From positions 2,728,001-2,792,000 of the forward strand of contig NC_018025.1 of assembly GCF_000266945.1 (NCBI RefSeq): a stretch of DNA of 64,000 nt, in the 5' to 3' direction. Shown here in pieces: positions 3,525 to 21,800 of this stretch. The translations under genes and the position numbers were made by a program. The stretch comes from Desulfomonile tiedjei DSM 6799. GTDB lineage: Bacteria; Desulfobacterota; Desulfomonilia; Desulfomonilales; Desulfomonilaceae. Numbering within the stretch: position 1 is the stretch's first letter; every line of letters starts with the position of its first letter. The notes beneath the pieces are model-generated. The model made no database searches. It saw only the letters and a program-made list of their open reading frames with translations, and was not told the origin of the DNA.

Positions 3525-3573
3525 TGGTGGAGATGAAGGGATTTGAACCCTCGACCCCCGCGTTGCGAACGCG
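3525..3573 (-). repeat. attachment-site copy 2 (3' fragment of tRNA-Ala)
   Basis: This is the second 48-49 bp direct copy of the tRNA-Ala 3' end, identical to 541-588 and to 21726-21773. The 5' half of the tRNA is absent. It separates the 3-kb element from the 18-kb satellite-like element and is the distal att site of the latter. Confidence 0.9.
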
Positions 3574-3624
3574 CTAAGTTGTAAAATGATTTCAACGCCT
3601 TAAACGCTTTTCCTTAGTGATTCC

Positions 3625-3706
3625 AGTTACCTTTTGTCTCGATTCGTCCTGTTTGGTCTTGATAAAACTGGATAGTTTCGACCAAAATGGTAACTAGATG
3701 GCAACT
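3625..3706. repeat. Putative integrase arm sites at the left end of the 18-kb element
   Basis: GGTAACT-N3-TGGCAACT at 3689-3706 matches the sequence at 21650-21667 in 16 of 18 positions. An inverted single copy, AGTTACC, lies at 3625-3631. The pair is about 116 bp inside att copy 2. Matching sites near both att ends are expected for arm-type binding by the element's tyrosine integrase; this role is inferred. Confidence 0.6.
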
Positions 3707-3848
3707 AATCTATGTGACACATTTTGGTCTCTTGTCACTTTAAAAAGGCGTCCTTTTTCCCCTTTTCTCCTTCCCTCGTTTCCCCGTATATGTTAGTAAA
3801 CCTATTTAGTTAAGCGGCTGAAACCAGCCTCCGGCACTCATTTTTTCA

Positions 3849-4538
3849 ATGATACAAAGACGACACGGCACACAGAAATTGATAGGACAGGCTACATACA
3901 TGATAGCAGACCAGACGACAGGCGCGCAGTCTCTCACACCCACTAACACACCATCACACACACCATCTCTTCACGACCAGTTTTACGGAACAGACGTTTC
4001 CGAAAATGACCGGCTCTCATTCAGTCTACTACTTGAAAAAGTGTGCGATGGGCTCGGCCATTGGTATCTAGGGATTGACAGCGAATTCCAGAAAGACATA
4101 TTGGCAGGTAGCAAGTTGTTTTGGGAGCGGCAAAGCAAACAGGCCGATGTGAAGGGTGAAACGGATAGCCGCACGACGGACACGAACGACCAGACAGCCG
4201 CTACCGTCAAAATCCAATGTGCAACAGAGCAGGTATGGACCGATCCGACACCTAATCATTTTGAAAAAATGGATGCTGGACCAGAGAAGCCGCGTTCGCG
4301 TAGACGGTCCAAAACAACGCAGAATCTCACACCGACAAGACTCAAACGTCTTCGCGAACAGATGGGTATTTCACAGTATCAGTTGGCGAATATGGCAGGG
4401 TGCATGCAACCCAGCATTTACAGGTTTGAGTATGGTCAAGTGAAAAACATTCGGAAAATAGAACCATCGGTTAGAGAGAAAATTGAACAGATTTTCAACA
4501 CTCCATTTGCAGAATTGATGCAACCGTGTTCGGAATAA
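3849..4538 (+). CDS. Cro/CI-type helix-turn-helix protein with a long N-terminal region
   Basis: A 229-residue protein. Residues about 158-215 form a Cro/CI helix-turn-helix: LKRLREQMGISQYQLANMAG, then PSIYRFEYG and a terminal REKIEQIF helix. The first 150 residues are polar and low-complexity with no family I recognise, including a Lys/Arg-rich linker before the HTH. It sits 18 bp upstream of the tape measure gene and probably shares its transcript, so it may regulate that gene. The start at 3849 has no obvious Shine-Dalgarno. ATG 3900, with AGGAC upstream, is an alternative that would remove 17 residues. The DNA-binding call is confident; the target is unknown. Confidence 0.7.
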   Translation: MIQRRHGTQKLIGQATYMIADQTTGAQSLTPTNTPSHTPSLHDQFYGTDVSENDRLSFSLLLEKVCDGLGHWYLGIDSEFQKDILAGSKLFWERQSKQADVKGETDSRTTDTNDQTAATVKIQCATEQVWTDPTPNHFEKMDAGPEKPRSRRRSKTTQNLTPTRLKRLREQMGISQYQLANMAGCMQPSIYRFEYGQVKNIRKIEPSVREKIEQIFNTPFAELMQPCSE

Positions 4539-4556
4539 CGGGAGGGAATTAGTATT

Positions 4557-7500
4557 ATGGCAGATAACAATATTGGTATCAGTCTCATCATTAAAGCGGT
4601 TGACGCGGGAAGTCCTATACTTGAGAAGATCTCGGGTGCATTGGACAAGATCGGACTGAGTTCGACCAATGCGGGACAAAAAGCGGGCACGGCTGGCAAT
4701 CAAATCAAGAATGCGTTTTCAGCGATCCCCGATCACCTGGACAAAATGAACAAAGCGGTTGAGAGCTTTTCAAACAAACTGGCCAGTATGGGCGCATCAT
4801 TGACCGCCCTTGGCGCATCAATCACCGCGCCAATGGGTCTTGCAGTCAAAACCGCTGCTGATTTTGAAAACGAGATGAACAAGTTGCAGGCGTTTGGTGA
4901 GATTGATGTCAAGACGGACGCGGGACAGAAGGCGTTCAAGGCGTTATCTGATAAGGCGAGAGAATTAGGCGCGGCGACGCAGTTCACTGCTGCCGAAGTT
5001 GCGGCAGGTATGGGTGAGCTTGCAAAGGCGGGTTATTCTACAGAGCAGATTATCGCGTCGATAGGGCCGGCGCTCAATCTCGCATTTACTGAAGGGCGGT
5101 CCATGAAGGACACGGCCGAAGATTTGGTGAAGGTCTTGGCGTCTTTCGGTATGGGGGCGGATCAAGCGGGACGGGCTACGGATGTGTTGTCAAAGACGTC
5201 GCTTGCTACTACCACATCAATGTCAGGTCTGGTTGAAGGTCTCAAATACGTGGCATCCATGGCCAACAATGTTGGCATGAACATCGAGGAGACATCGGCG
5301 TACCTCGGCATATTCGCGCAAAACGGTGTTGATGCGTCTATGGCAGGAACCGGACTCCGGCGCATCCTGGGAGATCTATCAAACCCGACAAAAGAGGCGC
5401 GGGGCGCATTAGCAAACCTGGGAGTAGAGATCGCCAAGAATTCGGACGGGTCCGTCAATCTGACTAAGACGTTTGAACGGCTTGCAAAGAGCGGATTATC
5501 CACCGCGGACGCATTCAAAATCTTCGGCGACCAGGGCGGAAACGTTGCGATCACGGCAAGCAAGAATATCGATGCGATTAAGAAACTGACCGTTGAAAAC
5601 GAAAATGCCAAGGGCAGTCTCGATAAGGTTGTCGGTATCATAAACAAAGGACTCGGCCCGGCCTGGAAGAATTTTTTGTCGGCGCTTCAAGAGGTAGCAA
5701 TCGCATTGGCGGGCCCGTTTTTGGAGGCCTTAAAAGGAGCGCTTGATCAGGTATCCGCGTTTCTCAGGGGCGTGAGCGAATTTTCAAAGGCCCATCCAAT
5801 CATAACACAGGCGATTACTGCCATAGTTGCGTCGTTTGGTCTGTTTGCCGCGGCTGCAGGAACTATCAGCCTGTCAATTGCTGGTGTCGGTTATGCTCTG
5901 GGTGGTCTGGGCACGGTGTTTGCGGGTAGCGGAATCTTGTCGATAGGATCCACTGTTGCATCCCTTATTCCCTCATGGGCGGGGCTTACCGCTGCAATCG
6001 GATCGTTTGTTTCAGCGCTCGGGACGGCAGGCACAGCAATCGCGGCATTCGCAAGCGGTCCTGTTGCCATTATAGCCGCGGCTGTTGCTGCGATTGTTGG
6101 TGCGGTTGCGGGCGGATATAAAATACTAAGTGACCGAGCAGAAGCAGCGGCAATCCAGGCGGAAACACTGAAGAAATCACAGGACGATTTACAACGTGCT
6201 ATTGATGAAGGATTCGACCCCAAGGCTGCTATTAAAAGAGTTTCCGGAGCAGATCTGCAAAATGATCCGTATGTGGATTTAGTGGCAAAACGCAAACAGG
6301 CTGTTGCGGAATTCGTTGGTATTGGCGAACAGCTCACGCAAGCCAGAGAAAAAGACGCTCAAAGCTGGTTGCCCGGGAAATCTTCGGACACAAAGGCGGC
6401 TGAGAGAAACTTTGTCTTGGCGCGCCAAAACCTGGACGCGATTCAGGCGGAAATTAACGGGCGGATCGATCAGAAAGCGGCGGTTGAGGGGTTGGTGGTC
6501 GCTCACGAGAAGCTCGTCAATGCCCAAAAGCAAGAAGTTAAGACAAGCGAGGAACTCTTACAGCTTACCAAAAACCGATCTGAGGTTGAGTTAAAGCTCA
6601 TTGGTGATTCTTTTAAGGACAAAGAGAACGCTTTCAAGTTGGAATTGGACCAGCGCAAAGTCGCTATTGAAGAGAGCACGAAGAGCACCGTTTTAACAGA
6701 ACAACAGATCAATAATCTCATCACTTCAAGCTCACAGCAAAGAATACGGATTGCTGAAGCCGAGTATGCGGCAACACGTGCTGCGCGCGAGAAGAGCTTT
6801 AGCGAACAGCGTAGCATCTACGAAAACATGTTGAAAAGCGGCGAAGATGTCGCAAGTGCGAAAAAAGGCTTAGCGGAACTTGAAAAAGCGCAAACAGAAG
6901 CGCAGATTGCCGACCAGCGGCGACTCTCTGAAGCTGTGATGCAAGAAGCCCACACTCAACTCAATGCAAAATCGGACGCTATCAAAAAAATCAAGGATCT
7001 TGAAAAAGAATTGCAGTCCGAACAAGACTCCACTCAAGAAGCCCTGAAGGGGATTAGTGGAGCGTATCTCAATGAATACGGCAAAATAGAAACTAAACTT
7101 TTTGACATTAATGAAAAATTCAAACAAGCCACCAAATTAATTCCAACCATGCCTGAAAAGGCACTCGAGCTATTTAAACAAGTGAAGAGCGAAAGTGCCG
7201 GAATGGTCAATAATCTCGAGCAGTTCAATGATAAACTGCAAAAAGTCGCAAACAATACTCAGGATGCCTTGCGCCGCGTGAATCGATTTGGGGAGGAAGG
7301 GGCTGATAAATATAAACAGGCGGCCGGAGATGCCCGGTGGTTGGCAGAGCGGGCAAATCAAGCGATTGCCGGAGGAAAATTTCAGACGGCTGAGGGTTTA
7401 TTCAACACACTTATGGCTACAGCAGAATCCCTACCTAGTGCCGTTAAGAAGACTGGGGATGCTGAAGTTGACAAAAGAAATCTTGAGGACGCAAAGCAAA

Positions 7501-8495
7501 CCGCACGCGATTACATAGCCCTAGCAAGTGGCGGTTTAACAGATGTCATTAACCTTCAGAAATTACAAGCAGAAAAGACAAATGAGCAAGCGAAAAAGAA
7601 CCTTGAGGCGGCTCAGAAACAAATCGAAGATCTGATTAAATCGCAAATTCAGAGTTCAAAAAACTTAATCACTGCGCTGAATGAAAATACCGCGGCACTG
7701 CGCGGGACGTCTGGAAACAACCAACAAGGCGGACAAGATGGTCCCGGGCAGGGGGGCGAGTCTGATTTACCCCCCAATTATACGCCGAGCGATTACACTC
7801 CACGTTATGACACCGGCTCGACAAACCTGGGGTACGATTACGGTTTTGGCGGCAGCTTGGGCGGCGGCTTGGGCGGTTATGATGGTTCCATGTCCGGGAT
7901 GACCAAATATGCAGTGAACTCCCCCGAAGTTGGACGGTTGCTTGCTCAAACCGACAAGCTACTTGCAAAATCTCATGCGGAGAGTCAAACCATGGCAGCG
8001 CGTATGGATGCGCTAAGATACCTGGAAAGCGCCGCGAAAAATCTCGATTACAAAGAAAGAATGGGTTATTTCGGGACGTTAGGTCCGCAAGATGCGGCTG
8101 ACCCTGAATTTGGTATGGGAGATAAAGACATCTCCGATGCGTTATATAGAATTTTGGGACGCGACACTTTCGATTTTGACGCAATGCGTGGGAATATAGA
8201 TCGCATGTTGGGAGGCGCGTACGAGCGGGCAAAAACAACCGTTGACGGGGCGAAGGAAGCCCTTGACCCCCAAACCCAATTGAATAATCAAATCGGAGAC
8301 ATGACCCAAAGACTGGAAACCGTTTTTGACAATTTTAGCAACAAGTTTGAGTCAGTTATGGATGACGCTGGGGGCAGATTCGCAAGTACCACTGAACGTT
8401 CAATCGAAGACGCCTTTGGCAAGGGCATGCTCATGGAAGTCAACTTGAGCAATGACGACGGCGCCTCTCTCGGCAGTGTCCGGAGGATTATATAG
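4557..8495 (+). CDS. Phage tail tape measure protein (TP901-type core), 1312 residues
   Basis: In phages this protein forms the rod inside the tail tube and sets tail length. Residues about 100-300 match the TP901 core (AADFENEMNKL, then ELGAATQFTAAEVAAGMGEL, FAQNGVDASMAGTGLRRIL and GDQGGNVAI). Residues about 410-530 contain several Ala/Gly-rich hydrophobic helices, as usual for tape measure proteins that enter membranes. A long coiled-coil region rich in Lys, Glu and Gln spans about 540-1060. A Gly/Tyr/Pro-rich linker follows near 1070-1130, then a helical C-terminus. It starts at ATG 4557 after GGGAGG. The frame is intact over 3.9 kb, which implies selection. What is odd is that no other tail, capsid or packaging gene is recognisable in the element. 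Confidence 0.9.
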   Translation: MADNNIGISLIIKAVDAGSPILEKISGALDKIGLSSTNAGQKAGTAGNQIKNAFSAIPDHLDKMNKAVESFSNKLASMGASLTALGASITAPMGLAVKTAADFENEMNKLQAFGEIDVKTDAGQKAFKALSDKARELGAATQFTAAEVAAGMGELAKAGYSTEQIIASIGPALNLAFTEGRSMKDTAEDLVKVLASFGMGADQAGRATDVLSKTSLATTTSMSGLVEGLKYVASMANNVGMNIEETSAYLGIFAQNGVDASMAGTGLRRILGDLSNPTKEARGALANLGVEIAKNSDGSVNLTKTFERLAKSGLSTADAFKIFGDQGGNVAITASKNIDAIKKLTVENENAKGSLDKVVGIINKGLGPAWKNFLSALQEVAIALAGPFLEALKGALDQVSAFLRGVSEFSKAHPIITQAITAIVASFGLFAAAAGTISLSIAGVGYALGGLGTVFAGSGILSIGSTVASLIPSWAGLTAAIGSFVSALGTAGTAIAAFASGPVAIIAAAVAAIVGAVAGGYKILSDRAEAAAIQAETLKKSQDDLQRAIDEGFDPKAAIKRVSGADLQNDPYVDLVAKRKQAVAEFVGIGEQLTQAREKDAQSWLPGKSSDTKAAERNFVLARQNLDAIQAEINGRIDQKAAVEGLVVAHEKLVNAQKQEVKTSEELLQLTKNRSEVELKLIGDSFKDKENAFKLELDQRKVAIEESTKSTVLTEQQINNLITSSSQQRIRIAEAEYAATRAAREKSFSEQRSIYENMLKSGEDVASAKKGLAELEKAQTEAQIADQRRLSEAVMQEAHTQLNAKSDAIKKIKDLEKELQSEQDSTQEALKGISGAYLNEYGKIETKLFDINEKFKQATKLIPTMPEKALELFKQVKSESAGMVNNLEQFNDKLQKVANNTQDALRRVNRFGEEGADKYKQAAGDARWLAERANQAIAGGKFQTAEGLFNTLMATAESLPSAVKKTGDAEVDKRNLEDAKQTARDYIALASGGLTDVINLQKLQAEKTNEQAKKNLEAAQKQIEDLIKSQIQSSKNLITALNENTAALRGTSGNNQQGGQDGPGQGGESDLPPNYTPSDYTPRYDTGSTNLGYDYGFGGSLGGGLGGYDGSMSGMTKYAVNSPEVGRLLAQTDKLLAKSHAESQTMAARMDALRYLESAAKNLDYKERMGYFGTLGPQDAADPEFGMGDKDISDALYRILGRDTFDFDAMRGNIDRMLGGAYERAKTTVDGAKEALDPQTQLNNQIGDMTQRLETVFDNFSNKFESVMDDAGGRFASTTERSIEDAFGKGMLMEVNLSNDDGASLGSVRRII

Positions 8496-8497
8496 GG

Positions 8498-8665
8498 TTA
8501 ACTGAGTGTTATATCGTCTTTTACCGACTCTTTCGCTGTGTCTAACCACGCGTCAATCGTTTCAAAAAGCTCGGCGGTTTTCTGCAGCGCTTCAACCATT
8601 GTGGAGAATCCAGCGGCCATATTACGGACCAGCTCTTGCATTGCGGTAATCTCTTCGATCTTCAT
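8498..8665 (-). CDS. Small helical protein of unknown function (55 aa)
   Basis: The start is taken as ATG 8665, which follows GGAG at seven bases (GGAGTATTTTTATG); an upstream in-frame codon at 8704 has no such site. The product is acidic and probably all helix (KIEEITAMQELVRNMAAGF, then ALQKTAELFETIDAWLDTAKE). It is convergent with the tape measure gene: the two stops are two bases apart. It is the last gene of a leftward set of four (10145 to 8498). No family is recognised. It could bind the tape measure coiled coil or be regulatory; this is speculation from position only. Confidence 0.6.
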   Translation of the reverse strand: MKIEEITAMQELVRNMAAGFSTMVEALQKTAELFETIDAWLDTAKESVKDDITLS

Positions 8666-8730
8666 AAAAATACTCCGATAAGGATAATGGGGAGCGCGAA
8701 ACACTCCCCTTGTTCATTTTCAACCCCACA

Positions 8731-9123
8731 CTACCAAGCTCCGGTGAAGGTCCCGACAGGTGCATCAAATTTCTTCACGGGCTCGGATTCGGGAGAAACG
8801 TCAACACTGATTGAGCCACTCGTGAACAGACCATCAAATTTGCCCGCGATTTTCTGGAAATCGTAAGATGCTTGCTCGGATTTCGTGGTGTAAGCTGTCT
8901 CGCGGGGCGGTTCCGGTTCGGCCTGCTTCACTTCCGGCTTGACTTCCGGGAACATTGAGCTGATTCGAGTCTCAATCAACCCCAAGTCTTTACGCAGTGT
9001 CAACAATTCCGGACTCGGAAGAGGGGCGTTGCCACTCTTTTGCTTCAATTCCCGAATGCTGTCTCTTACACTCTGCATATTCTTTACTGCTGCAGACAAA
9101 GCGGTCATTATCGGGCCTTCCAT
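8731..9123 (-). CDS. Hypothetical element protein (130 aa)
   Basis: ATG 9123 is preceded by AGGAG at seven bases and is preferred over an upstream in-frame codon at 9171 that overlaps the previous gene. The N-terminal half is helical (ALSAAVKNMQSVRDSIRELK, then LTLRKDLGLIETRISSMF). A Pro/Glu-rich linker follows (PEVKPEVKQAEPEPP), and the C-terminal half has a possible small fold ending FDAPVGTFTGAW. No known domain is recognised. It lies in the leftward operon after the 238-residue HTH-like protein, 48 bp downstream of it. The open frame, ribosome-binding site and spacing support a real gene. Confidence 0.6.
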   Translation of the reverse strand: MEGPIMTALSAAVKNMQSVRDSIRELKQKSGNAPLPSPELLTLRKDLGLIETRISSMFPEVKPEVKQAEPEPPRETAYTTKSEQASYDFQKIAGKFDGLFTSGSISVDVSPESEPVKKFDAPVGTFTGAW

Positions 9124-9170
9124 GTGTATTCTCCTATCGTTTTTTACTATTTGAAAAAGACGCTGACGCA

Positions 9171-9887
9171 CTATGCCACGTCAGCCACTAACGCTTGTTC
9201 TGTCCCGTCCACGGATGGGGAGAGGGGAGAATCAAGCGCATCATTAGCGGCGCGTTTCTCTTTGTTCCTTTTTTTTTCGGTCTCGGGTAGCCGATGTTTG
9301 CGAGGGTCCCGATTGCCGGTAATCTCGCACATCAAGTCTTCCCAAGATAGCTTCACACCACATCGATCTGTGAAAAATCTCTCGAAGACCTCGACAAATC
9401 CGCTTTTCCGACTTTCGCGGTGCGGTCGGGTGCGTTCGATTAGTTGAATATCATCAGCGCCAATGTTCCGAATGTTCGGCTGCGGATGGTCGCGTTCCCA
9501 CTGTTCCAGGGATCTCACATTGAGATTGTTCATTTTCCACATTTTGAAGTCAGACGGGCGTAACATTGAAGCTGCAAAACGCTCGCGCTCAGAGCGCCAC
9601 TCGACAGTCTGTTTGGAAACATCCAGCCGATGGAACTTGGAGACCTCCGCGGCAAGTTCGGCCTGGGACAACCCAAGTTCCGACCGTATTTTCTGCCAGA
9701 GACAAGGGGCCTTGGCCGTCTTTTGCGTGCAACGATGATACTGCAGACTAAAGCACGTCCCGATAACCTGTTCCAATATGGCGGGCTCCATGGCGTCACA
9801 TGCGGCAAGTGCTTTGTGGAATCCCTTGTCTAATAACGCACATCGCAGCTCGTGTCTGTCTCTCGTGTATGCCAAAATACTTTCCAT
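9171..9887 (-). CDS. Hypothetical protein with an HTH-like segment (238 aa)
   Basis: A 238-residue, charge-rich protein preceded by GAGAGGAAA nine bases before ATG 9887. Residues about 63-90 (LWQKIRSELGLSQAELAAEV) look like the first helices of a Cro/CI helix-turn-helix, but the rest does not follow a known repressor architecture. The C-terminus is strongly basic (EKKRNKEKRA), then acidic. It is the second gene of the leftward set, downstream of the ribbon-helix-helix protein. A role in DNA binding is plausible; the family is unknown. It contains several Cys residues but no clear metal motif. Confidence 0.6.
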   Translation of the reverse strand: MESILAYTRDRHELRCALLDKGFHKALAACDAMEPAILEQVIGTCFSLQYHRCTQKTAKAPCLWQKIRSELGLSQAELAAEVSKFHRLDVSKQTVEWRSERERFAASMLRPSDFKMWKMNNLNVRSLEQWERDHPQPNIRNIGADDIQLIERTRPHRESRKSGFVEVFERFFTDRCGVKLSWEDLMCEITGNRDPRKHRLPETEKKRNKEKRAANDALDSPLSPSVDGTEQALVADVA

Positions 9888-9944
9888 GTGAAATATTTCC
9901 TCTCTTACTATTGCAAAAGTGTCGTCAAGATCGTTTTCAAGTGA

Positions 9945-10145
9945 CTACCATCCACGCAACGGGCGCCTGCGTTGTATGGCTGGCCTGTCTTGTCGATCTC
10001 CGGTAGACCGCAATCCTGCATCGATCAAATTGCGGATATACGCAGAGACTGTAATACCCCTCTGGGCGGCCAGATTGGCCAAAAGATCAGCAATGCTATT
10101 GCTCACCTTAACTGCAATGGTCTGATTGAATCCTTCGCGCTCCAT
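9945..10145 (-). CDS. Ribbon-helix-helix DNA-binding protein (CopG/Arc-like, 66 aa)
   Basis: The first 47 residues match a ribbon-helix-helix fold: a short strand (NQTIAVKVS), helix A (SIADLLANLAAQRG) and, after ITVSAYI, helix B (RNLIDAGLRST). The tail is basic (RQDRPAIQRRRPLRGW). Such proteins dimerise and bind short repeated operators through the paired strands. AAGGAC precedes ATG 10145. It is the first gene of the leftward operon and faces the 700-bp repeat-rich region at 10146-10872, whose multiple CACATT/AATGTG motifs are natural candidate sites for it. That binding is inferred. Confidence 0.75.
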   Translation of the reverse strand: MEREGFNQTIAVKVSNSIADLLANLAAQRGITVSAYIRNLIDAGLRSTGDRQDRPAIQRRRPLRGW

Positions 10146-10872
10146 AACATTTTGTCCTTGTGTGTTCGGCCTGTTTTGTAAGCAATTTGCCGGTCATCAG
10201 ATATTTGAAATTGTGTCGTACCAAGCTCCCCATATATTGGGGTTCAATTCGAGAAAAGGTTTACCAAACTACGGACGGTTTGCAAACAAAAATATGCAGA
10301 ATATGAGCGGATCCACGTAAGATTCCACATTCCATGATGCGCGCACAAAATCACATTGCCACACATCCACCGTTTCTTATACCCCAAAATGCCGCCAAAA
10401 TGTGACAATTTACGTCAACCACTATCAACAAAGTTTACAGAACCACACGTCAAAATGTGTAAGCATAAATAGAACATATGCACCATGTGACAATAAATGT
10501 CATACTGCTGACGTCAAATGTCATTAATTGTGCCAAAGAGTGTCATAATACACATTGAGCACACATTAAACGCACAGTGAAATGTGGCCTGATACATTCT
10601 ACTTAACTCTAACAACATTCATATCACACTTACCACACATTTTGGCATATCTTTTGCTCTATAAAACGACAACAGCGACACACAAATGGAAAAGGGAAGG
10701 ATAGAAACAGACAAACAGAACGCAGCCAAACAGAGCAAAAAAGGACAGCGAAAGGCAGTAAGAGGCTGCCGACCCCGAAACACCGGAGAGGGAACAAAAT
10801 CCCCTGGACACGGCGAGGAGAAGGGGGAAAGAGAAAACCGGACAACAATAAAAATCAGAAAGGATCTTCACC
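10146..10872. other. Gene-free regulatory/replication-like region with repeated CACATT/AATGTG motifs
   Basis: Over 700 bp with no convincing gene; a 68-codon frame at 10686 has no ribosome-binding site. Eight exact CACATT or AATGTG copies lie between 10326 and 10641 (10326, 10352, 10399, 10454, 10551, 10562, 10581, 10636). Related words also occur (ATGTGACAAT at 10399 and, with one flank change, 10485; AATGTCAT twice near 10497-10523). The tract is AT-rich and separates divergent genes. It could be a divergent operator array or an origin-like iteron region. Confidence 0.5.
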
Positions 10873-11061
10873 ATGCGCCACACATACCATAGAGCATGGC
10901 ACCTCACCGCCCCATGGAAACGAATCTCAAAGGAACACCTAACAACAGCACTGAGACAACTGTTTCCACCTCACGAAGTGCCCCACATGATAGACAAGAT
11001 TGACCGCGGAGACATCCTCGAGACGCAGCACGCTTTTTATAAATGCGAAATGTGCAGATAA
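10873..11061 (+). CDS. Small hypothetical protein (62 aa)
   Basis: ATG 10873 follows AAAGGAT at about eight bases. The 62-residue product (starts MRHTYHRAWHLTAPWKRISK, ends FYKCEMCR) is rich in His, and its C-terminal CEMC pair could bind metal, though a full finger is not present. It is the first rightward gene after the repeat-rich region and is followed by a GC-rich hairpin at 11079-11102, then by the next small gene. No family is recognised. Confidence 0.5.
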   Translation: MRHTYHRAWHLTAPWKRISKEHLTTALRQLFPPHEVPHMIDKIDRGDILETQHAFYKCEMCR

Positions 11062-11078
11062 TCACCAACACTCTATAC

Positions 11079-11102: not shown

Positions 11103-11133
11103 TTTACCCAACACATCCAAGGGAGACACACCC

Positions 11134-11720: not shown

Positions 11721-12374
11721 ATGGCCAAATCTTATTCTGCCCAAGACAAGAAATCAACAAGCGAAACAACTTATCAACAGGGGACGGGTCAGCCCGCTAC
11801 CCTCGCGGAAACGTCCCCACTCACCGACCAGCTATCAACAGACGATGATATCGAGATCACGTTTGCCGACGAAACAAACCCCTCTCTTGATGATCCCACG
11901 TGCTCCGATTCTGTTTCCCTCACCATGGACACTGACAAACCCCTCACCCTGGACGATCCCGACGACGACATAACCACCCTGGACCACGAACCCCGAGATG
12001 TTCCCGACGACGAAAACGATCCCGACATCTCCATCGAATGGAACGATGAATCTTTCCCTTGGCCTACAGCCAAACCACTATCCGAACTCGAGCTTGCTGT
12101 CTGGAAAACATACCACATCCCGCTCCCCATCCTACCCGAAACAGGACTCCCCCCGTTGAACCATCTAATCGCCCCCCTCACTGAATGGGCTGGACCCGTT
12201 AAGGCCCTGATTGCGACTGCTACAGATTTGAATCTCGAAAGTATCGATTCAGACGATCTTGAAGCAGGAAAACGGGCTGAACGAGCCTTTTGCACTCTCA
12301 AAGCTGTGGAGCGGTTGTTTTCGGACCTGGACGTTTTGTTCGACGTATGGGGGAAGGCGCTGCACAAGAGGTAA
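11721..12374 (+). CDS. Highly acidic hypothetical protein (217 aa)
   Basis: ATG 11721 follows AAGGAGG at about eight bases. Residues about 35-115 are extremely rich in Asp and Glu (stretches such as DDDIEITFADE, DDPDDDITTLDHEPRDVPDD and PDISIEWNDESF). The C-terminal half is a probable helical domain (LSELELAVWKTYHIPL, then AERAFCTLKAVERLFSDLD). No family is recognised. Acidic early proteins of phages and mobile elements are often DNA mimics that block restriction or repressors, so this is a possible role, not shown. It lies 6 bp upstream of a Cro/CI-type regulator and probably shares its transcript. Confidence 0.6.
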   Translation: MAKSYSAQDKKSTSETTYQQGTGQPATLAETSPLTDQLSTDDDIEITFADETNPSLDDPTCSDSVSLTMDTDKPLTLDDPDDDITTLDHEPRDVPDDENDPDISIEWNDESFPWPTAKPLSELELAVWKTYHIPLPILPETGLPPLNHLIAPLTEWAGPVKALIATATDLNLESIDSDDLEAGKRAERAFCTLKAVERLFSDLDVLFDVWGKALHKR

Positions 12375-13708: not shown

Positions 13709-13736
13709 GAGACATCATGTCGAATTCCAAACAAAG

Positions 13737-14806: not shown

Positions 14807-14881
14807 AGTGACTCCTGGTAATAATTACGTTCAAATCCTCGAAATTCGAGGTAAGGCAATTCAAGTAATAAATTTGAAAAG

Positions 14882-15391
14882 TTAGCTGTTCCCTTTCTCT
14901 TCTTTGTTTTCACATCCGTTGAGCCACTCGAGCCGTTCGGGTTTGCCGGACTTCATGCAAAAATTGCCGGTCGGGACCTGGGGAGTGCGTAAGTGTGTGC
15001 AGTAGAGGCATGATGTTTGCGGGGCGTCGGGAAAGGGATTGATTCCGAGTTTTTCCATGAGCGTGAAATAGTCAATAAAGCCGAGTCTACATTTTTTTAA
15101 AAGTCCTTCTAATTCTGGTTGTTCCTCGATTCTTCGCCTTACCTCTTCCCGCCGATCTTCCGGGATAAGGAAGAGGGCGGAAGCTGGGGTTGTTTTGTGT
15201 GCGTTAATTTGGGTTGTTTTTGGATTGGGATGCTGTTGTTCTTGCTCGTTTTGGTCTGGTTTTTCTGTTTCTGTTTCCGATTCTGTCTCTATTTTTGTTT
15301 CATTTGGCACAAATTCATGTTTTGTGGCACGACCATTAGGTGCTGATTGCATGCTGCTTTTGTCTTTGAATAACTCGAATACGTTGACCAT
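14882..15391 (-). CDS. Hypothetical protein with a C-terminal four-Cys motif (169 aa)
   Basis: ATG 15391 follows GAGGTCTAAA. Residues 1-65 are a hydrophilic Glu/Gln/Asn-rich tail (for example ETKIETESETETEKPDQNEQ). Residues about 70-115 form helices (PEDRREEVRRRIEEQPELEG, then LKKCRLGFIDYFTLMEKLG). The end holds CLYCTH-N9-FC and a last Cys in LNGCENK, a spacing that fits a small zinc or iron-sulfur site. Its start is 22 bp from the first iteron at 15413, downstream of the primase-helicase pair, so an accessory role in replication initiation is plausible. Family unknown. Confidence 0.6.
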   Translation of the reverse strand: MVNVFELFKDKSSMQSAPNGRATKHEFVPNETKIETESETETEKPDQNEQEQQHPNPKTTQINAHKTTPASALFLIPEDRREEVRRRIEEQPELEGLLKKCRLGFIDYFTLMEKLGINPFPDAPQTSCLYCTHLRTPQVPTGNFCMKSGKPERLEWLNGCENKEEKGNS

Positions 15392-15412
15392 TTTAGACCT
15401 CGTTTTGGCTCG

Positions 15413-15688
15413 TTTCTACATTTCTACATTGAATCTACATAAGTTCCTACATGTATAAGTTACTGTAATTCCGTTGCAATTCGCTTTTTATGTAGAAATG
15501 TAGAAACACTTCTAGTTTTAAATAGGGGGGGGGTAGTTATTATTTTTGTCTCAAAAAAAAATCCGTAAAAAGAAAACTGGCATCCTTTCTACATTTCTAC
15601 ATAATGTCCGAATTGTGGTGTCATTGTGGTTGTTTAGGCATGTCGGAAGCCATGTAGAAAGAAAATCTCGTTCTACATTTCTACATAA
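15413..15688. repeat. Iteron-like repeats next to the primase-helicase gene (candidate replication origin)
   Basis: Four copies of a TTTCTACATTTCTACAT(A/T)(A/T) unit occur at 15413-15430, 15488-15506 (inverted), 15586-15604 and 15671-15688, each itself a tandem of TTTCTACAT. Extra half-sites lie near 15435, 15446 and 15651. The tract lies in the 310-bp gap between the helicase stop and the next gene and contains A/T-rich runs. Satellites of the P4 type keep the origin near the primase gene and use direct repeats bound by it, so an origin is the natural reading. The first copy could also act as an operator for the 15391 gene. Confidence 0.6.
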
Positions 15689-15701
15689 ACCCGCTTCTGG
15701 A

Positions 15702-17264
15702 CTAGGCGGCAAACTTAACTCCTTTAAAAAACACGCCAAATTGGTCACGGTCTTTAACAAAGGGGCCTTTGTTGTTTTTAAGGGACTCCAGATGCTTCGA
15801 CAGTGTTCGTTTTTTCACGGGGAACTTGATCCCGTTGTCTTTGCTCCAAGCCTGATAGTCGGAGTATATACTTGTTAGGCTTAGGTGTGCTCCTTCACAG
15901 TAGGATAAACGGTCTCTAGCATAAGCGGCAATGGGGTTGATGTCTTCAAGGTAATCGTCAAGTTTCTCTTGAGATGAGGCTGGTTCGGTAAATTTTTTTT
16001 GGGCTTGGAGCTTCATGAATCCTTGGATTGCCCAATTAAAGACCCCACTGAGTTCATTTTGGATTATATCCCGGTTGATGCCGATAATCTTAGGCTTCTC
16101 GTATGGGTTGTCAGGGTCCACTGAATCGGGGTCTTTAAATTTCACGCGGAAGTTTATAATGCAGAGGCGCCGGGCGAATCCGTATGAAGTGTCATTTGTT
16201 CGGGGGAGAGTGTTACAAGCAACGATCATCTTCACGAAGAGCCGGACCTTCTGGGGGTCCTTCCCTTTGCGCTCAATGACTTGGGGTTCTCCTGACACGA
16301 TGTTTTTAAATTTGCCGTTTGACAGCAGGCGCCTTCCATCGTTGTCGTACGTGATATTGACCAGTTTCCCTTGAAGCTGTTCAAGGCGGAATCGCTCCGA
16401 GAGATCATCAAGGGAAAGAGCGGAGCAATTGTCCGGTCCAAGCATGTGTTCAATTATCTCGAGAATAGTGCTTTTCCCGTTTGCGCCGTCTCCGGTGAGA
16501 ATTAAGCATTTTTCATAAACTGGTTTAGTGCAAAGCAGGTACCCGATGAATTCTTGCAACAACAGTCTTTGATCATTCTCGGGCAATGCTGTAGTAAGCA
16601 GTTGTAACCATTTCGGACACTCTGCGTTTGGGTCAAACCGGACATTCGCCATGATTGTGGAATAGTTCTTAGGCGAGTGTTGTTCGGTGAAATCGCCCGT
16701 TTCGAGGTTCAAGACGCCATTTTGCAGCGTAATCAGTCCAGGCTTATTCACCTTTTCGGGACGCACAAAACGGTCGATTGCCAAGAGCTTCCGGACCTCC
16801 GACACCTGGGAGAGATAGACCTCTGTGTTGAAATCCTTTTGTAACTCGGTAATGATCAGCTTATCAACTTCCTGATCGTAAAGGTGTTGATATATTTTCC
16901 CATCCCACTGATAGAATTGTTGTCCGTGGTTAATAAAAAAACCTTTGGATGTGATACGGGCAACGAATTCGAGCGGATGATACGGCGGTTTTTCGTCCCG
17001 TTTCCGGGATTCTTTCGCCTTAGCAATGGCTTGTTCAATTTTGTTTGCGGGTGGAATTTTGAATCCGAGGTTGTACCTCAAGGCCTTATCGTAAAGGACT
17101 TGAGAAAGGGTTCCCCAAGAGGAGCCTTTTCGGCGGGATATCAAATCAATGATCTTGTCGTGAAACGCTTCCTCACGCTTTGAAATGGATTCGATTGTGA
17201 GCAATTCGTTGAGCAGGGCGTCAAAAATATGCTGTCTGGGTAGTTTATCGAAAAACGGTATCAT
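15702..17264 (-). CDS. P4/D5-type replicative helicase (primase C-terminal family), 520 aa
   Basis: An SF3-type helicase of the phage/plasmid primase P4-family C-terminal group. It has Walker A (LILTGDGANGKSTILEII), a Walker B-like/sensor region (KLVNITYDNDGRRLLSNGKF) and the family's FVKMIVACNTLPRTNDTSYG followed by FARRLCIINF. The N-terminal part resembles the D5_N region (KNYSTIMANVRFDPNAECPK). It would unwind the element's origin with the primase encoded just upstream; the two reading frames overlap as TAATG, so translation is coupled. The iterons at 15413-15688 follow its stop. Length and motifs are complete. Confidence 0.9.
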   Translation of the reverse strand: MIPFFDKLPRQHIFDALLNELLTIESISKREEAFHDKIIDLISRRKGSSWGTLSQVLYDKALRYNLGFKIPPANKIEQAIAKAKESRKRDEKPPYHPLEFVARITSKGFFINHGQQFYQWDGKIYQHLYDQEVDKLIITELQKDFNTEVYLSQVSEVRKLLAIDRFVRPEKVNKPGLITLQNGVLNLETGDFTEQHSPKNYSTIMANVRFDPNAECPKWLQLLTTALPENDQRLLLQEFIGYLLCTKPVYEKCLILTGDGANGKSTILEIIEHMLGPDNCSALSLDDLSERFRLEQLQGKLVNITYDNDGRRLLSNGKFKNIVSGEPQVIERKGKDPQKVRLFVKMIVACNTLPRTNDTSYGFARRLCIINFRVKFKDPDSVDPDNPYEKPKIIGINRDIIQNELSGVFNWAIQGFMKLQAQKKFTEPASSQEKLDDYLEDINPIAAYARDRLSYCEGAHLSLTSIYSDYQAWSKDNGIKFPVKKRTLSKHLESLKNNKGPFVKDRDQFGVFFKGVKFAA

Positions 17265-18247
17265 TACAGGTTCCTCTGAAAAAAGCTGTTAATATCGACC
17301 TTATCTTCATCGTCTAGTAATGGCAGCGTAATAATTTCGACATCGAATCCGGCCGCGAACAAAGCTTTTCCCTTGTCCAGGGCGGCGGCTTGTCCGGATC
17401 CACTTTGCCGGTCGGTATCCATGGCCATGATGATTTTTTCGGCCTTGGTTTTCTTGAGTTCTTTTATTCTTGCGGGCGTCAAGCCTTGCGTTCCGAATGT
17501 GGAGACGGCAGGATATCCATGTGCTTCAAGTGTCCACTTGTCTGTCACCCCCTCGACCAAATAGACCTCTGATTCGTTCCGGACGTCATCTAATCCATAA
17601 AGGGTTTGGGGCATCTCGGGATCTGTTGCGGCTGTACACATGTATTTGGGGTTAACATCGGGATTTGTGGTTCGGCCAAGGATGGAAACGATTTGATCAC
17701 CGCGGACAATCGGTATTATGATGCGGCCTTTGAAAAGGAAGAATGTGTCGTTTTTATTAATCAGTCCGGCATTGCGCGACTCGTCCCAATTCGAGGGATC
17801 AGAGCCGGACGTGATATACCCCACCTTTCCTTTGATGACCGATTCGGGAATGCCACGGCCGGCGAAATACTTATGCGCTATATCTGCGTTTTTCAATGAT
17901 GACCGAAACAAAAATTGATATTCTTTAGAGATTCGTTCCTGTTTGGCGACAATCTCCATTTTTGCAGGGTCCATGTTAAACTCGGGCAAGCTAAACAGTG
18001 CTGTGAATTTTTTGAGCGCTTCGGACCGGCTACATTTCAGAATTTTTTGGATAACGTCTAATTTACCGATCCACTCTCCGGGGCCATAGTCATAACAGAA
18101 GTGTTGATTAACGTGGACAGAGGGCTCTGTTTCTTCACGGTCGAATGCTGCGGTTTTATTCCCGCGAATCTGTTTTCCGAGTTTTTCCAGTAATTCAGGC
18201 ATAGAGACTTCATCTAGATAGTCTATCAATTCCTTGCTTTTCGACAT
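17264..18247 (-). CDS. DnaG-like primase with Toprim domain and degenerate zinc domain (327 aa)
   Basis: The C-terminal half is a Toprim primase core: acidic motif EVYLVEGVTDKWTLEAHGYP and the DxD motif IIMAMDTDRQSGSGQ, which bind the catalytic metals. The N-terminal 60 residues align in position with the CHC2 zinc domain (EETEPSVHVNQHFCYDYGPG) but keep only one Cys, so the zinc site appears lost. ATG 18247 follows GAGGAATAGCCA. It is coupled to the helicase by a one-base overlap. Together they make a two-gene version of the primase-helicase that satellites like P4 carry as one fusion. RNA-primer synthesis on the element is the likely role. Confidence 0.85.
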   Translation of the reverse strand: MSKSKELIDYLDEVSMPELLEKLGKQIRGNKTAAFDREETEPSVHVNQHFCYDYGPGEWIGKLDVIQKILKCSRSEALKKFTALFSLPEFNMDPAKMEIVAKQERISKEYQFLFRSSLKNADIAHKYFAGRGIPESVIKGKVGYITSGSDPSNWDESRNAGLINKNDTFFLFKGRIIIPIVRGDQIVSILGRTTNPDVNPKYMCTAATDPEMPQTLYGLDDVRNESEVYLVEGVTDKWTLEAHGYPAVSTFGTQGLTPARIKELKKTKAEKIIMAMDTDRQSGSGQAAALDKGKALFAAGFDVEIITLPLLDDEDKVDINSFFQRNL

Positions 18248-18445
18248 TGGCTATTCCTCGTATACGGCAATGCTCCGCGCAACGCTGCACGGGCAGAAAA
18301 AAATTCTCTGACTAGGGGGAAATGTAAAAAAATTCGCTTGATTTTGGGGATTGGAAAGGCTAATCATTAGACACCCTTTAAAAATTTACCACTTACCCGT
18401 TCAAAGCTTGAGGCTGACACCTCAAGTTTTGCTTTGTTGGGCCTA

Positions 18446-18679
18446 TTACGCGACGAGTTTCAGCAATTTCTCGTGGTCCACTCCGGCCAGCAATTTCTTG
18501 ATGGGCACTCCGAAAAACTCTTCCAAGCGTCGGACTGTCTCCCGTGTCAAAAATCGGTTCTCTCCGATCACCGGATTGCGTTCAACATGGCAGATGACGG
18601 CCGGGTCCAGGTCAATGAGTTTTGCAAGTTGACGTTGGTTCAAGCCCTTCGACACTCTAAGAACCCTCATGAGAATCAT
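18446..18679 (-). CDS. Cro/CI-type HTH regulator (77 aa)
   Basis: A compact XRE-family DNA-binding protein. Its helix-turn-helix is MRVLRVSKGLNQRQLAKLID, then PAVICHVERNP, followed by helix ETVRRLEEFFGVPIKKLL. There is no second domain. GAGAGGTAACAACA precedes ATG 18679. It lies 200 bp upstream of the primase gene on the same strand and probably controls replication genes or competes with the 128-residue regulator. A rare feature is the turn after the recognition helix, which has Asn-Pro and Gly-Glu insertions. Confidence 0.75.
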   Translation of the reverse strand: MILMRVLRVSKGLNQRQLAKLIDLDPAVICHVERNPVIGENRFLTRETVRRLEEFFGVPIKKLLAGVDHEKLLKLVA

Positions 18680-19356
18680 TGTTGTTACCTCTCTAACATG
18701 TGCTCTATTGTTGTGGTGTTCGTTTGGGTTGCTCTCATAAATACCTATTTTGATATACTAATCTATTCAATAATGTCTCTTTGGGGGGTAAGCCCCCCGT
18801 AATTGATGTTTCAGTATCACATCAAAAATTGCGTTTCAAGGAAAATGACGATATTGATGAAAATAGTTTAGAAATGGTCTGTGTGTGGCTCTGGTAGCTC
18901 TTGCACCCTCTCTTGTCGTCCGACAAAAAGTAGGCTGTAGGCTACACCCTATTTTTCTGGTTGAATTTTACAACCGTAATGTGAGTTTAAAATGACAGTC
19001 TGAGAGGCACAATATTTAAGTCTGTTGATGTCTTTTACGCGTCTGTTGGTGACAATGTGAGGTTGTTCATACATTTGGAGGGGAGTGAATATCGGCACAG
19101 CATGTGTGGACAGATTAGCGAACCTGTGGATAACTTTGCCGGGCGGCTGTGGAAGCTGGTTTGAGATTTTTTAAAGTGTGGCTTGGGTGGTTTGTATAAC
19201 ACATCCCTTTTGCCATACGTACGACAACAAACCCATGCAAAACTTGTGCTGAAATAAAAATACGGGCTGAACGGAAAGCGGGCGAGATGTTGGAGGTAAT
19301 GGATAGACAAGGACCAACACGTCCAAAAGAAAAAGTGTCGCACGATGAAACACTTT
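18680..19356. other. Gene-free region with a DnaA-box match
   Basis: No gene is supported; a 102-codon frame at 19343-19035 has no recognisable product. The stretch is AT-rich and low in coding signals. It contains a perfect DnaA-box sequence TGTGGATAA (19125-19133), with a near copy TGTGGACAG about 20 bp upstream. TCTGTTG(A/G)TG is repeated near 19021 and 19041. It may contain the promoter for the leftward HTH gene and possibly host-DnaA contacts. Confidence 0.4.
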
Positions 19357-19782
19357 TTACTCCAAAACTTTCAGACTTCGGAATCTCTCGCTCTTCTTCC
19401 TCCCGCTGGCAATCGGTGGCGGCGATTCCGGAAGAACGTGCAGATATTCCCCATTATCGGTCAGGTACGGGCACTCGTTTTCATCATCATCTGCGTCGGC
19501 CGTTCCGGTATAGTGGGGGCACGTGGACGGGTTGCGGGGGCAGACAGACGATGCATCTTCACTTCTTCCTGATTTCGGGAAAAGGTTGTCGTTAAGATCG
19601 TTGCGTGTTCCTTGTTGCTCTTTTGCCACTTCCCGCACAATCTCTTCGAGTTTGAGAGCCAGTTCGGCCCTTTGGAATGCCTGTAAGTTCCTTCTCCCAA
19701 ACTGGTTATTGATGATCCATATTTTGGCTTCATTGCGGGTCTTGAAGCTGACCGTTGTCGTGTCGAACGGTATGTTACGGCC
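19357..19782 (-). pseudogene. Remnant of a ParB-like/replication-associated protein, N-terminus missing
   Basis: The frame from 19782 to 19357 reads IGRNIPFDTTTVSFKTRNEA, then KIWIINNQFGRRNLQAFQRA and ELALKLEEIVREVAKEQQ. It ends with a Cys-containing Asp/Glu-rich tail. The IWIIxNQxGRRNLxxFQRxELALKLE pattern is typical of the segment after the ParB/sulfiredoxin-like nuclease domain in phage and plasmid DNA-binding proteins. The N-terminal ParB-like domain is absent: an in-frame TGA lies just upstream and no ATG or GTG precedes the conserved part. GTG 19638 could start only the last third. It is therefore probably a truncated gene. Three palindromes lie directly upstream. Confidence 0.5.
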
Positions 19783-19895
19783 AATTCAGGAACTGGTTCC
19801 TGAATTATGTAAAATCAGCACCTTAACTTCCGAAAACAGTTTCGGAAGTTGAAAAAAGGTAATGATTTGTCAAATGAGGTTCCGGAACCTCATTT
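19783..19895. repeat. Three consecutive near-perfect palindromes, 43-46 bp apart
   Basis: P1 (19783-19806) has arms AATTCAGGAAC and GTTCCTGAATT around TG. P2 (19825-19850) has arms AACTTCCGAAA and TTTCGGAAGTT around ACAG. P3 (19872-19895) is a perfect 24-bp palindrome centred on GGTTCC/GGAACC. Centres are near 19794.5, 19837.5 and 19883.5, about four helical turns apart. They lie between the ParB-like remnant and the excisionase-like gene. They may be dimer-binding operators or a centromere-like (parS) array; transcription terminators are less likely because no T tracts follow. Confidence 0.65.
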
Positions 19896-20049
19896 AAACC
19901 CATGCCGGCAAGAAACAGTTGACACCGTGTGCACGCCTTTGATACTGAACGATCAATCCCCGGCAGATTAGGTGCTTTGCACGCTACCGACAAAATGAGG
20001 AGAAGAAAATCATGTGGATCTCTGACACGTGATGTAATTCGAGGGCTAA

Positions 20050-20481
20050 ATGCCTCGAAAAAATGGTGCTGGTCGCGATGACCGCGACTTGAGAAGAGAA
20101 GACGAACGTAATCAGTCCACCACCTCACCATCCACACAACCATTCCAGCTCTTAACGCCCGCGCAAGTTGCGGGAATGCTGCAGATCCCCGTCAAATCTG
20201 TACACGCTCTGTGTAGAGCGGGGAAGCTGGGCTATATTCGGATAGACGGCAAATCCCGGCGCTTCACCCTGGAAGATGTTGAGACATTCCTGAATGAGCG
20301 GCGAGTTTCCGGCCAATCTGCGCGAGTAACAGCAAAAAGCGGTCTCTCTTCCCATGTACGCAATCATCCTGTTGACAGATCTCCAAAACCATCCGTAGTA
20401 TCCAGCAAAGGGGGCAAACAACAGGAATCAGGAAAAGCGTTTAGGGCATCTCTTCGGCGGGAGATGCAAGCATGGGAGTAG
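20050..20481 (+). CDS. Excisionase-type helix-turn-helix protein (143 aa)
   Basis: A central domain (residues about 33-85) matches the MerR-like winged HTH of excisionases: LLTPAQVAGMLQIPVKSVHA, then RAGKLGYIRIDGKSRRFTLE and DVETFLNERR. The flanks are basic and probably disordered. It precedes the integrase with a 10-bp overlap, so the two are translated as a unit. It would bend DNA at the att region and favour excision, or regulate int. GAGGG precedes ATG 20050. The triple palindrome at 19783-19895 lies just upstream and may be its regulatory or binding region. Confidence 0.8.
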   Translation: MPRKNGAGRDDRDLRREDERNQSTTSPSTQPFQLLTPAQVAGMLQIPVKSVHALCRAGKLGYIRIDGKSRRFTLEDVETFLNERRVSGQSARVTAKSGLSSHVRNHPVDRSPKPSVVSSKGGKQQESGKAFRASLRREMQAWE

Positions 20482-21629
20482 TCAAACGGAATGGATCGTT
20501 CTTTGTCTATTTCAGGCCGTTCAGGAAAGAAAAGATCGGCTTAAAACTTGATTTCTGCGATTCAAAGCGGGATGCGGAACACGTTGAGACTTTGCTGGTT
20601 CGCGCATGTCGGACGGGAGAATATGGGATATTGGACCCTGTTACAAAAGAAGTTGCTATACGGATGTTTGAAAATAGGGGCTGGCAACTTCCACCAGGCT
20701 TATGTCCACCACAAACGCCCGAAAACGATGTGACTCTCTGGGAAGCTGTTGAGATCTTCCTGAAATACCCAGAGATACGGCGGCGCTCATGCAAAGATCG
20801 TTATAAGATGTGCATTACGCATCTTGTCGAATTTTTCGGGAAGAGTCGGCCAATGAAGTCAATTCGTGTTCCTGATATAAGGCGTTATCAACTTGAGAGG
20901 ACTGATGCCAAAGCTTCACCTTCAACGGTGAACTGGGAAAAAGGCACGCTCTCAAAGATTTTTCAAGCCTTATGTGAACTCGAATACGTGGAAATCAACC
21001 CTGTGAGACAGGTCAAGAATCTGTCTCAGAAGAGTGAAGAGAGGCGAGTGTATCTCTCTTATCAGGATGTGATTCGGATATCGGACGCAACGCCCGTATG
21101 GTTTAGGTCTATGATCATTGTGAGCTATTATTCTGGTTTGCGTCGCGGTGAAATCATGAATCTGTCCAGGAAACAGGTTCATCTTGCAGACCGGATGATT
21201 TATCTCGGGCCTAAAGATACTAAAGAGTTCGGGTGGAAACGTGTGCCGATCAGGCAAGAACTTGTACCTGTCTTTGAAGAGGCGCTAAAGGTCACGGCTA
21301 TAAAGTCCGACCAGGTGTTTCTCTTAAAAGACAAGAGCGGAACACGTTCACTGAACCTGGAAGCAACAAAGAATCCTTGGGGGCGAGCTATCCAATCATT
21401 GGCTTTTCAAAAACCTTGGCCTCGTTTCCACGATCTGCGGCATACATGGCGAGCAAACGCCCGACGGTCTGGCATGGACCCTGCTTTGGCTGAATCTATC
21501 CTCGGGCACTGGCAACGGGGTAGAAATGTCAATGAACGATACGGGTATGTGTCTGATGAAGAACTTTTGCGGGCCGTGGATTCAATGACGTTCGACAACG
21601 GACAGACAAACATCCTTATAGCAAAGTGA
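20472..21629 (+). CDS. int: Tyrosine recombinase (integrase of the 18-kb element)
   Basis: A 385-residue phage-type integrase that inserts the element into the 3' end of tRNA-Ala. The SAM-like core-binding domain spans about 90-190. The catalytic domain keeps Arg in YYSGLRRGEIMNL, the HxLRH box in PRFHDLRHTWRANARRSG, the His in ESILGHWQRG and the nucleophilic Tyr in NERYGYV. The N-terminal 80 residues are an arm-type binding domain by position. GGGAG lies eight bases before ATG 20472. The stop is 97 bp from the att copy in tRNA-Ala, the usual int-att arrangement. Arm-type repeats follow at 21650-21667. Confidence 0.93.
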   Translation: MGVVKRNGSFFVYFRPFRKEKIGLKLDFCDSKRDAEHVETLLVRACRTGEYGILDPVTKEVAIRMFENRGWQLPPGLCPPQTPENDVTLWEAVEIFLKYPEIRRRSCKDRYKMCITHLVEFFGKSRPMKSIRVPDIRRYQLERTDAKASPSTVNWEKGTLSKIFQALCELEYVEINPVRQVKNLSQKSEERRVYLSYQDVIRISDATPVWFRSMIIVSYYSGLRRGEIMNLSRKQVHLADRMIYLGPKDTKEFGWKRVPIRQELVPVFEEALKVTAIKSDQVFLLKDKSGTRSLNLEATKNPWGRAIQSLAFQKPWPRFHDLRHTWRANARRSGMDPALAESILGHWQRGRNVNERYGYVSDEELLRAVDSMTFDNGQTNILIAK

Positions 21630-21649
21630 AAAAGAATGGCTCTTTTGTG

Positions 21650-21667
21650 GGTAACTGAATGGCAACT
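21650..21667. repeat. Putative integrase arm site next to att copy 3
   Basis: GGTAACT-GAA-TGGCAACT matches the site at 3689-3706 in 16 of 18 positions. It ends 59 bp before the tRNA-Ala copy, nearly the same distance as the GTTAGCTA pairs before att copies 1 and 2. This is consistent with the P' arm site of the integrase. Confidence 0.6.
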
Positions 21668-21687
21668 GGAAGCGGCGCAACAAAAAA

Positions 21688-21707
21688 ACCATGTCTTGCA
21701 ACATGGT
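21688..21707. terminator. Hairpin between int and tRNA-Ala
   Basis: ACCATGT (21688-21694) and ACATGGT (21701-21707) form a 7-bp stem with a 6-base loop. It lies between the integrase stop and the 3' end of the tRNA gene. It could separate int transcription from the converging tRNA gene. Confidence 0.45.
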
Positions 21708-21725
21708 CTAAGTTATTGTTTTCTT

Positions 21726-21800
21726 TGGTGGAGATGAAGGGATTTGAACCCTCGACCCCCGCGTTGCGAACGCGGTGCTCTCCCGCTGAGCTACATCCCC
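21726..21800 (-). tRNA. tRNA-Ala (anticodon CGC), also att copy 3
   Basis: The complement folds into a complete 75-nt cloverleaf: acceptor GGGGATG/CATCTCC with the alanine identity pair G3-U70, D arm GCTC/GAGC, anticodon arm CCGCG-TTCGCAA-CGCGG, T arm GAGGG-TTCAAAT-CCCTT, and an encoded CCA end at 21726-21728. The anticodon CGC (21766-21768 on the plus strand) reads GCG codons. Nucleotides 28-75 are duplicated at 541-588 and 3525-3572. The intact gene therefore survived integration because the incoming att restored its 3' half. Confidence 0.95.

Follow-up and report, generated by a model that had tools for sequence, protein, structure and literature searches.

An integrated, satellite-like element of Desulfomonile tiedjei with its own tape measure gene and a piece of a putative phage scaffold gene

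What would a phage satellite gain from a full-length tail tape measure protein (TMP) when it is short of other virion genes? This question is raised by an element in a 64,000-nucleotide stretch of the Desulfomonile tiedjei DSM 6799 genome (NC_018025.1, positions 2,728,001 to 2,792,000; the whole stretch is called the window here). The element, designated element A, occupies positions 3525-21774 (18.25 kb) and is integrated between two exact 49-bp direct repeats that start at 3525 and 21726. It is integrated, possesses an integrase, regulators and replication genes, and has an incomplete set of virion genes, as a satellite does. We consider it somewhat probable that element A is a phage satellite that remakes both the head of its helper, by a scaffold-derived protein, and the tail, by its own TMP.

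Both devices have precedents. In PLE (phage-inducible chromosomal island-like element) satellites of Vibrio cholerae, the satellite's own TMP is built into virions in place of the phage TMP, and efficient transfer depends on it (PMC12987554, March 2026); loss of this TMP lowered transfer by 96% to 99.9% (PMC12987554). Putative TMP genes were also noted in PLE-like elements and in capsid-forming phage-inducible chromosomal islands (cf-PICIs; PMC12987554, Extended Data Fig. 10). As for the head, the PLE protein TcaP favours T=4 heads (PMC10945586), and CpmB of Staphylococcus aureus pathogenicity island 1 (SaPI1), which has a C-terminal capsid-binding motif in common with the scaffold of phage 80alpha, drives the formation of small heads (PMC5644958).

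The tape measure gene and its relatives

The TMP gene of element A is intact; it starts with ATG, has GGGAGGG upstream, and begins 18 bases past a helix-turn-helix (HTH) gene. The product matched TIGR01760 (tape_meas_TP901) with 191 bits (cut-off 28.8), Pfam PF10145 (E 3e-41), and PHROG tape measure families (to E 7e-70). A preliminary description of this DNA had reported a full-length TP901-type TMP beside an HTH regulator, in a satellite-like element with integrase, excisionase, primase-helicase, and regulators. The score and the 18-base gap confirm the former, and the tRNA repeats and profile matches (Table 1) bear out the latter. That description also stated that the element has no other structural genes. 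We scanned 30 open reading frames (ORFs) of element A, picked from a mechanical ORF list (20 against Pfam and PHROGs, and 10 against PHROGs only), and apart from the TMP none matched a terminase, portal, capsid, or tail family. The statement therefore stands as far as profile searches go, and fails for the gene at 8731-9123 on the minus strand, which has the C-terminus of a phage scaffold-position protein (see below).

A second element, B (18.3 kb), lies in a tRNA-Val gene of the same genome, is flanked by 49-bp repeats, and has the same layout as element A. The integrases of A and B are 47% identical, the primases 23%, and the TMPs (1306 residues in B) 83% across 1310 residues. Between the two TMP genes, the nonsynonymous divergence (dN) was 0.124 and the synonymous divergence (dS), which is near saturation, was about 2, giving a dN/dS of about 0.06; dN was at most 0.28 in every one of nine windows along the gene. 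The TMP is thus under strong purifying selection. In the 11 gene pairs compared between A and B, no internal stop was found, and the only gene with a dN below that of the TMP was the 77-residue HTH gene. Most structural genes are absent from element A, as would suit a decayed prophage remnant or a TMP that is carried as a functionless passenger. However, the second element of the same layout, the uninterrupted frames, the low dN/dS, and the intact replication, integration, and regulatory genes make either possibility, the former of which had been named in the preliminary description, highly improbable. Terminase or capsid matches, the other result that the description had named as contrary to its reading, were likewise not obtained in the 30 ORFs scanned.

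When the D. tiedjei genome (G000; 6,527,027 bases in two contigs) was searched with PF10145, only two TMPs were found, both in satellites (A and B). Two genomes in a set of 60 relatives contained the TMP, G000 and G004, in the latter within a prophage, and the same two were found among 395 genomes sampled from the phylum (E <= 1e-40). TMP alignments gave no match against genome contigs.

Close TMPs were present in two viral contigs, designated phage D (92 kb) and phage E (85 kb), which are the contigs examined among 59 viral TMP loci. In both, head and tail genes surround the TMP gene. The phage D TMP (1310 residues) is colinear end to end with the satellite TMPs. Its identity to them is 73-78% in residues 1-164, 93% (A) and 99% (B) in residues 165-410, 22% in residues 657-1066, and 43% in residues 1067-1312, where the motif LGSVRRI near the end is common to both. 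The phage E TMP (1279 residues) has about 56% identity over 1185 residues, and 52% in the central part. The resemblance of both TMP ends to those of phage D fits use in helper-built tails. We also considered and rejected a recent exchange between element B and phage D at residues 165-410: in that segment the DNA is 83% identical, with 61% agreement at third positions, so that the 99% amino acid identity mostly reflects constraint. An older exchange is possible, with B slightly closer to phage D than to A in this segment.

These comparisons bear on two explanations of what a satellite would gain from a TMP. The first, put forward in the preliminary description, is an altered tail length. Tail length is set by TMP length, and the PLE11 TMP, which differs by 95 residues from that of the phage, shortens tails by about 10 nm (PMC12987554). 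However, the satellite TMPs have 1312 and 1306 residues, and phages D and E, the nearest phages detected, although perhaps not the true helper, have TMPs of 1310 and 1279; because these lengths are nearly equal, a change of tail length is very unlikely. The second is an effect on DNA entry, in which the satellite TMP would alter genome ejection, such as ejection into a cell where the helper is already present. TMPs participate in DNA ejection (PMC11661146), and the central region (657-1066), so different from that of phage D, is 80% identical between A and B. Yet the central part of the phage E TMP is related, and the difference may just mark another helper lineage; we regard this explanation as quite unlikely.

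A putative scaffold-derived gene in four related elements

The gene product of 130 residues beside the TMP (Table 1) resembles at its C-terminus the C-terminus of a 382-residue protein of phage D (37.7 bits; the best of 2000 shuffles gave 24.3). The phage D gene has an XkdF-type protease gene (PF14550, E 1e-17) on one side and the capsid gene on the other, and we infer from this position and the sequence that its product is the scaffold protein. In element B, the version of the 130-residue protein ends in APVGKFTGAW, like the phage D protein. Alignment of the 130-residue protein gave no match among viral contigs.

Two smaller elements of the same genome were found via a 238-residue gene of element A and the attachment sequence of phage D. 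Element F (11.2 kb) lies in a tRNA-Pro gene, where it occupies the phage D attachment sequence; element H (10.4 kb) lies in a tRNA-Glu gene. Unlike A and B, they are without a TMP. At their starts, their genes for 172 and 160 residues match the initial 50-59 residues of the phage D scaffold-position gene (62% and 58% identity, respectively), and the products end in GKFWPW and GHFWPW. When 12 phage D proteins, several of them named by position only, were compared with A, B, F, and H at E <= 0.01, only the TMP (two of the four elements) and the 382-residue protein (all four) gave matches. A further element, K, is found in G008, a genome from another genus of the family. It has a 219-residue relative of the 238-residue gene beside a 220-residue gene, which matches the 382-residue protein at residues 156-307 with 29% identity; the boundaries of element K were not found.

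The 238-residue gene itself was present in two of the 60 related genomes (four copies in G000 and one in G008) and in one of the 395 genomes of the phylum sample (E <= 1e-6). Its structure model had a mean predicted local distance difference test (pLDDT) score of 54.2, and alignments of first two and then three sequences gave no match against viral contigs.

Some observations were made at these loci. An 11.7-kb second island with its own integrase adjoins element F at the same tRNA-Pro gene (G000, C1, about 2613003-2624684). Just past the tRNA-Pro second island is an integrase split into three ORFs, 81-88% identical to the element B integrase. In the G008 element, a 104-residue ORF (L103, 9043-9357, minus strand) matches the N-terminal half of the TMP-linked HTH protein of element B (25%, E 1e-5), which hints that this half may be a separate domain.

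Candidate helpers and the proposed mechanism

Phages D and E have tyrosine integrases of the same kind as the satellites, with 40-53% identity to the A and B enzymes. For elements F and B, the tRNA attachment sequences are present in D and E (49-57 bp, 98-100% identity); for A and H, they were found in neither phage. The 79-bp end repeat of phage D is no proof of a complete genome, as it lies within a repetitive stretch; no end repeat was seen in phage E. Large genes of D and E, guessed to be terminases, had no PHROG match.

A resident helper of the D/E type in the D. tiedjei genome was considered and rejected, as PF10145 retrieved satellite TMPs only and no D/E-type capsid gene was found in G000; in the set of 60 genomes, two (G004 and G009) have such a gene. 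The one in G009, a genome of the same family, is at C96 1200-2135 on a 5.7-kb contig. The phage D portal was not found in G000 by a search made without a positive control, and PF20454 (GpA terminase nuclease) was not found there, other terminase families not having been searched. These results leave room for other kinds of resident prophage in G000.

Signs of both the CpmB and the PLE devices are present in the sequence of element A, and for this reason we propose small heads together with chimeric tails. When a long-tailed helper of the D/E type, about 85-92 kb in size, becomes active, the satellite would excise via its integrase and excisionase-like protein and replicate by the P4-family primase-helicase. 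The C-terminal peptide of the 130-residue protein would bind the helper capsid protein and lead to small heads that fit an 18-kb genome. The satellite TMP would substitute for the helper TMP, and the resulting chimeric tails would consist of the tail tube, tip, and chaperone of the helper and a satellite ruler of similar length. An own TMP may benefit the satellite by shielding it from factors that target the TMP, by giving tails that join satellite heads preferentially, or by altering DNA ejection. The identity of the helper, the head size, the incorporation of the TMP into particles, and the reason why an own TMP pays are predicted from these comparisons.

Several points weigh against this proposal. 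No helper is known and no particle has been seen. The host genome has no D/E-type capsid gene, as stated above, and the shared attachment sequences are weak evidence for a shared host, because tRNA genes are conserved: the match indicates hosts with a similar tRNA rather than the same host, and 8 of 20 genomes other than G000 contain a 23-base core of the F/D attachment site. On the side of the head, the scaffold match spans only 43 residues, the 382-residue protein of phage D matched no Pfam or PHROG scaffold model, and the 130-residue protein was modelled as two helices with low confidence (pLDDT 59.8). On the side of the tail, the central TMP region has only 22% identity to phage D, and the absence of a TMP from F and H means that it is not essential to the way of life of this group of satellites. 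Tail chaperones of D and E had no match in A or B at E <= 0.05 (the best, at 0.088, was outside the element, and a diverged chaperone could be missed), and the 12 phage D proteins revealed no baseplate gene in either of the two.

The lack of a detected chaperone or tail-tip gene is also what would be expected if the satellite TMP were mainly an interference factor, which in excess ties up the chaperone, tail tip, or tube protein of the helper and lowers its yield, and which is dispensable in satellite virions. Other elements do target tail assembly, such as Tai (PMC11364771) and Tab (PMC10884400), the latter through an action on the TMP. However, a decoy would need no 1300 constrained residues, and the satellite TMP has kept both ends and its full length, with low dN along its whole length and with LGSVRRI as in phage D. 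We consider interference unlikely as the main role.

A more specific form of the head-and-tail proposal is tentative. The virion would be changed at two points, with genes that derive from a single phage group: at the head, by scaffold-gene pieces that differ between the satellites, and at the tail, in two of the four, by a complete TMP of unchanged length. This TMP would serve as an identity or ejection module and not as a ruler, given the conserved length and the lack of an accompanying tail chaperone. Such a module would tag satellite tails for use with satellite heads, evade factors that target the TMP, or alter entry into already infected cells.

Other features and comparison with known satellites

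The integrase gene of element A adjoins the tRNA-Ala gene, and the G+C content is 0.478 in the element and 0.505 in the remainder of the window. The annotated features are listed in Table 1.

Table 1. Features of element A and its attachment sites (window coordinates)
Feature	Position	Strand	Evidence or remark
Left attachment repeat	3525..3573		49-bp copy of tRNA-Ala 3' end; exact match to 21726-21774
HTH regulator, 229 aa, directly 5' of TMP gene	3849..4538	+	PF01381 E 2e-6; 48% in element B
TMP, TP901 type, 1312 aa	4557..8495	+	TIGR01760; colinear with phage D and E TMPs
55-aa gene, no assigned function	8498..8665	-	67% identical in element B; seen in A and B only
Scaffold-derived protein (putative), 130 aa, beside TMP	8731..9123	-	C-terminal 43 residues 49% to phage D scaffold-position protein
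238-aa satellite marker gene, no assigned function	9171..9887	-	Relatives beside scaffold-derived gene in B, F, H, K
Ribbon-helix-helix-like protein, 66 aa	9945..10145	-	Weak NikA-like/RHH_1 matches under cut-off; relatives in B, F, H
62-aa ORF common to phage D	10873..11061	+	74% to phage D 63408-63614
73-aa ORF common to phage D	11134..11355	+	61% to phage D 63155-63379; 81% to element B
CI-like HTH regulator, 128 aa	12381..12767	+	Phage_CI_repr E 3e-4, slightly under cut-off; PHROG regulators
Serine recombinase, 275 aa	12844..13671	+	PF00239 E 1e-37
P4-family primase-helicase, 520 aa	15702..17264	-	TIGR01613 182 bits; PHROG primase E 1e-89
Toprim primase, 327 aa	17264..18247	-	Toprim and DNAG_N
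HTH regulator, 77 aa	18446..18679	-	PF12844; 88% in element B
Excisionase-like HTH protein, 143 aa	20050..20481	+	PF12728 E 2e-11; PHROG excisionase E 1e-8
Tyrosine integrase, 385 aa	20472..21629	+	PF00589 E 6e-16
tRNA-Ala (CGC), intact	21726..21800	-	ARAGORN, Rfam; 3' part (21726-21774) = right attachment repeat
aa, amino acid residues.

By tblastn (E <= 0.1), the 55-residue gene matched neither phage D nor phage E, nor any of elements F, H, and K. A 217-residue acidic protein with no family assigned (11721-12374, plus strand) has diverged fast between A and B (33% identity), and element B has two related ORFs. The region that precedes the excisionase-like gene looks alike in A (19940-20045), B (16569-16659), and phage D (6380-6560), with a stretch resembling a promoter, a possible short hairpin, and a leader ORF of 5-6 codons; this leader region matched no Rfam family. 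PADLOC, applied to 10 proteins, gave weak or domain-level matches only. One of them, of the toprim primase (17264-18247, minus strand) to the model 'RTasDnaG-like' (E 4e-19), is taken as a shared primase domain, not as a defence system.

Like the PLEs, element A combines an own TMP with a separate protein that may redirect head assembly. The PLEs bring a tail chaperone with the TMP, and PLE11 also a baseplate hub gene (PMC12987554), whereas element A has the TMP alone. The PLE and helper TMPs share 20% identity and differ by 95 residues in length (PMC12987554), whereas the TMP of element A is of near-equal length and highly similar to phage TMPs. The PLE head protein TcaP is an external scaffold (PMC10945586); element A instead has a piece of a putative phage scaffold gene, and its integrase is a tyrosine integrase. 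As with CpmB, this piece is a small satellite protein with the C-terminal motif of a phage scaffold (PMC5644958), in element A over 43 residues with 49% identity and with the scaffold role assigned by us. CpmB differs in sequence from the 130-residue protein, for which capsid binding and small heads are predictions only. A competing scaffold of the CpmB type has a helical part for dimerisation at its N-terminus; the low-confidence model of the 130-residue protein has two helices. The cf-PICIs likewise include satellites with a putative TMP gene (PMC12987554). They encode their own capsid, and element A had no capsid or portal match.

Element A resembles P4 in its primase-helicase, which is of the P4 family. 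P4 uses the external scaffold Sid, and we know of no TMP in P4 or in SaPI1.

The preliminary description knew of no well-described satellite with a TMP as its only virion gene. This view needs revision to the extent that an own TMP and chimeric tails have been reported for PLEs (PMC12987554). In the literature searched, outside which most subscription papers lie, satellite TMPs were described in PMC12987554 only. As far as this search goes, element A is new in belonging to another bacterial group, in having a TMP but no recognised gene for a chaperone or baseplate, in the near-equal length of this TMP and those of related phages, and in its combination with a piece of a putative scaffold gene.

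Tail manipulation by satellites first became known in PLEs and was suggested to be broader (PMC12987554). Element A and its relatives are a candidate second lineage of satellite tail manipulation, outside Vibrio and the cf-PICIs. The D. tiedjei genome offers a natural comparison, in which related satellites with and without a TMP carry different pieces of one phage scaffold gene, as we interpret it. The near-equal TMP length raises the testable question of what benefit, other than tail length, a satellite may obtain from a TMP of its own.

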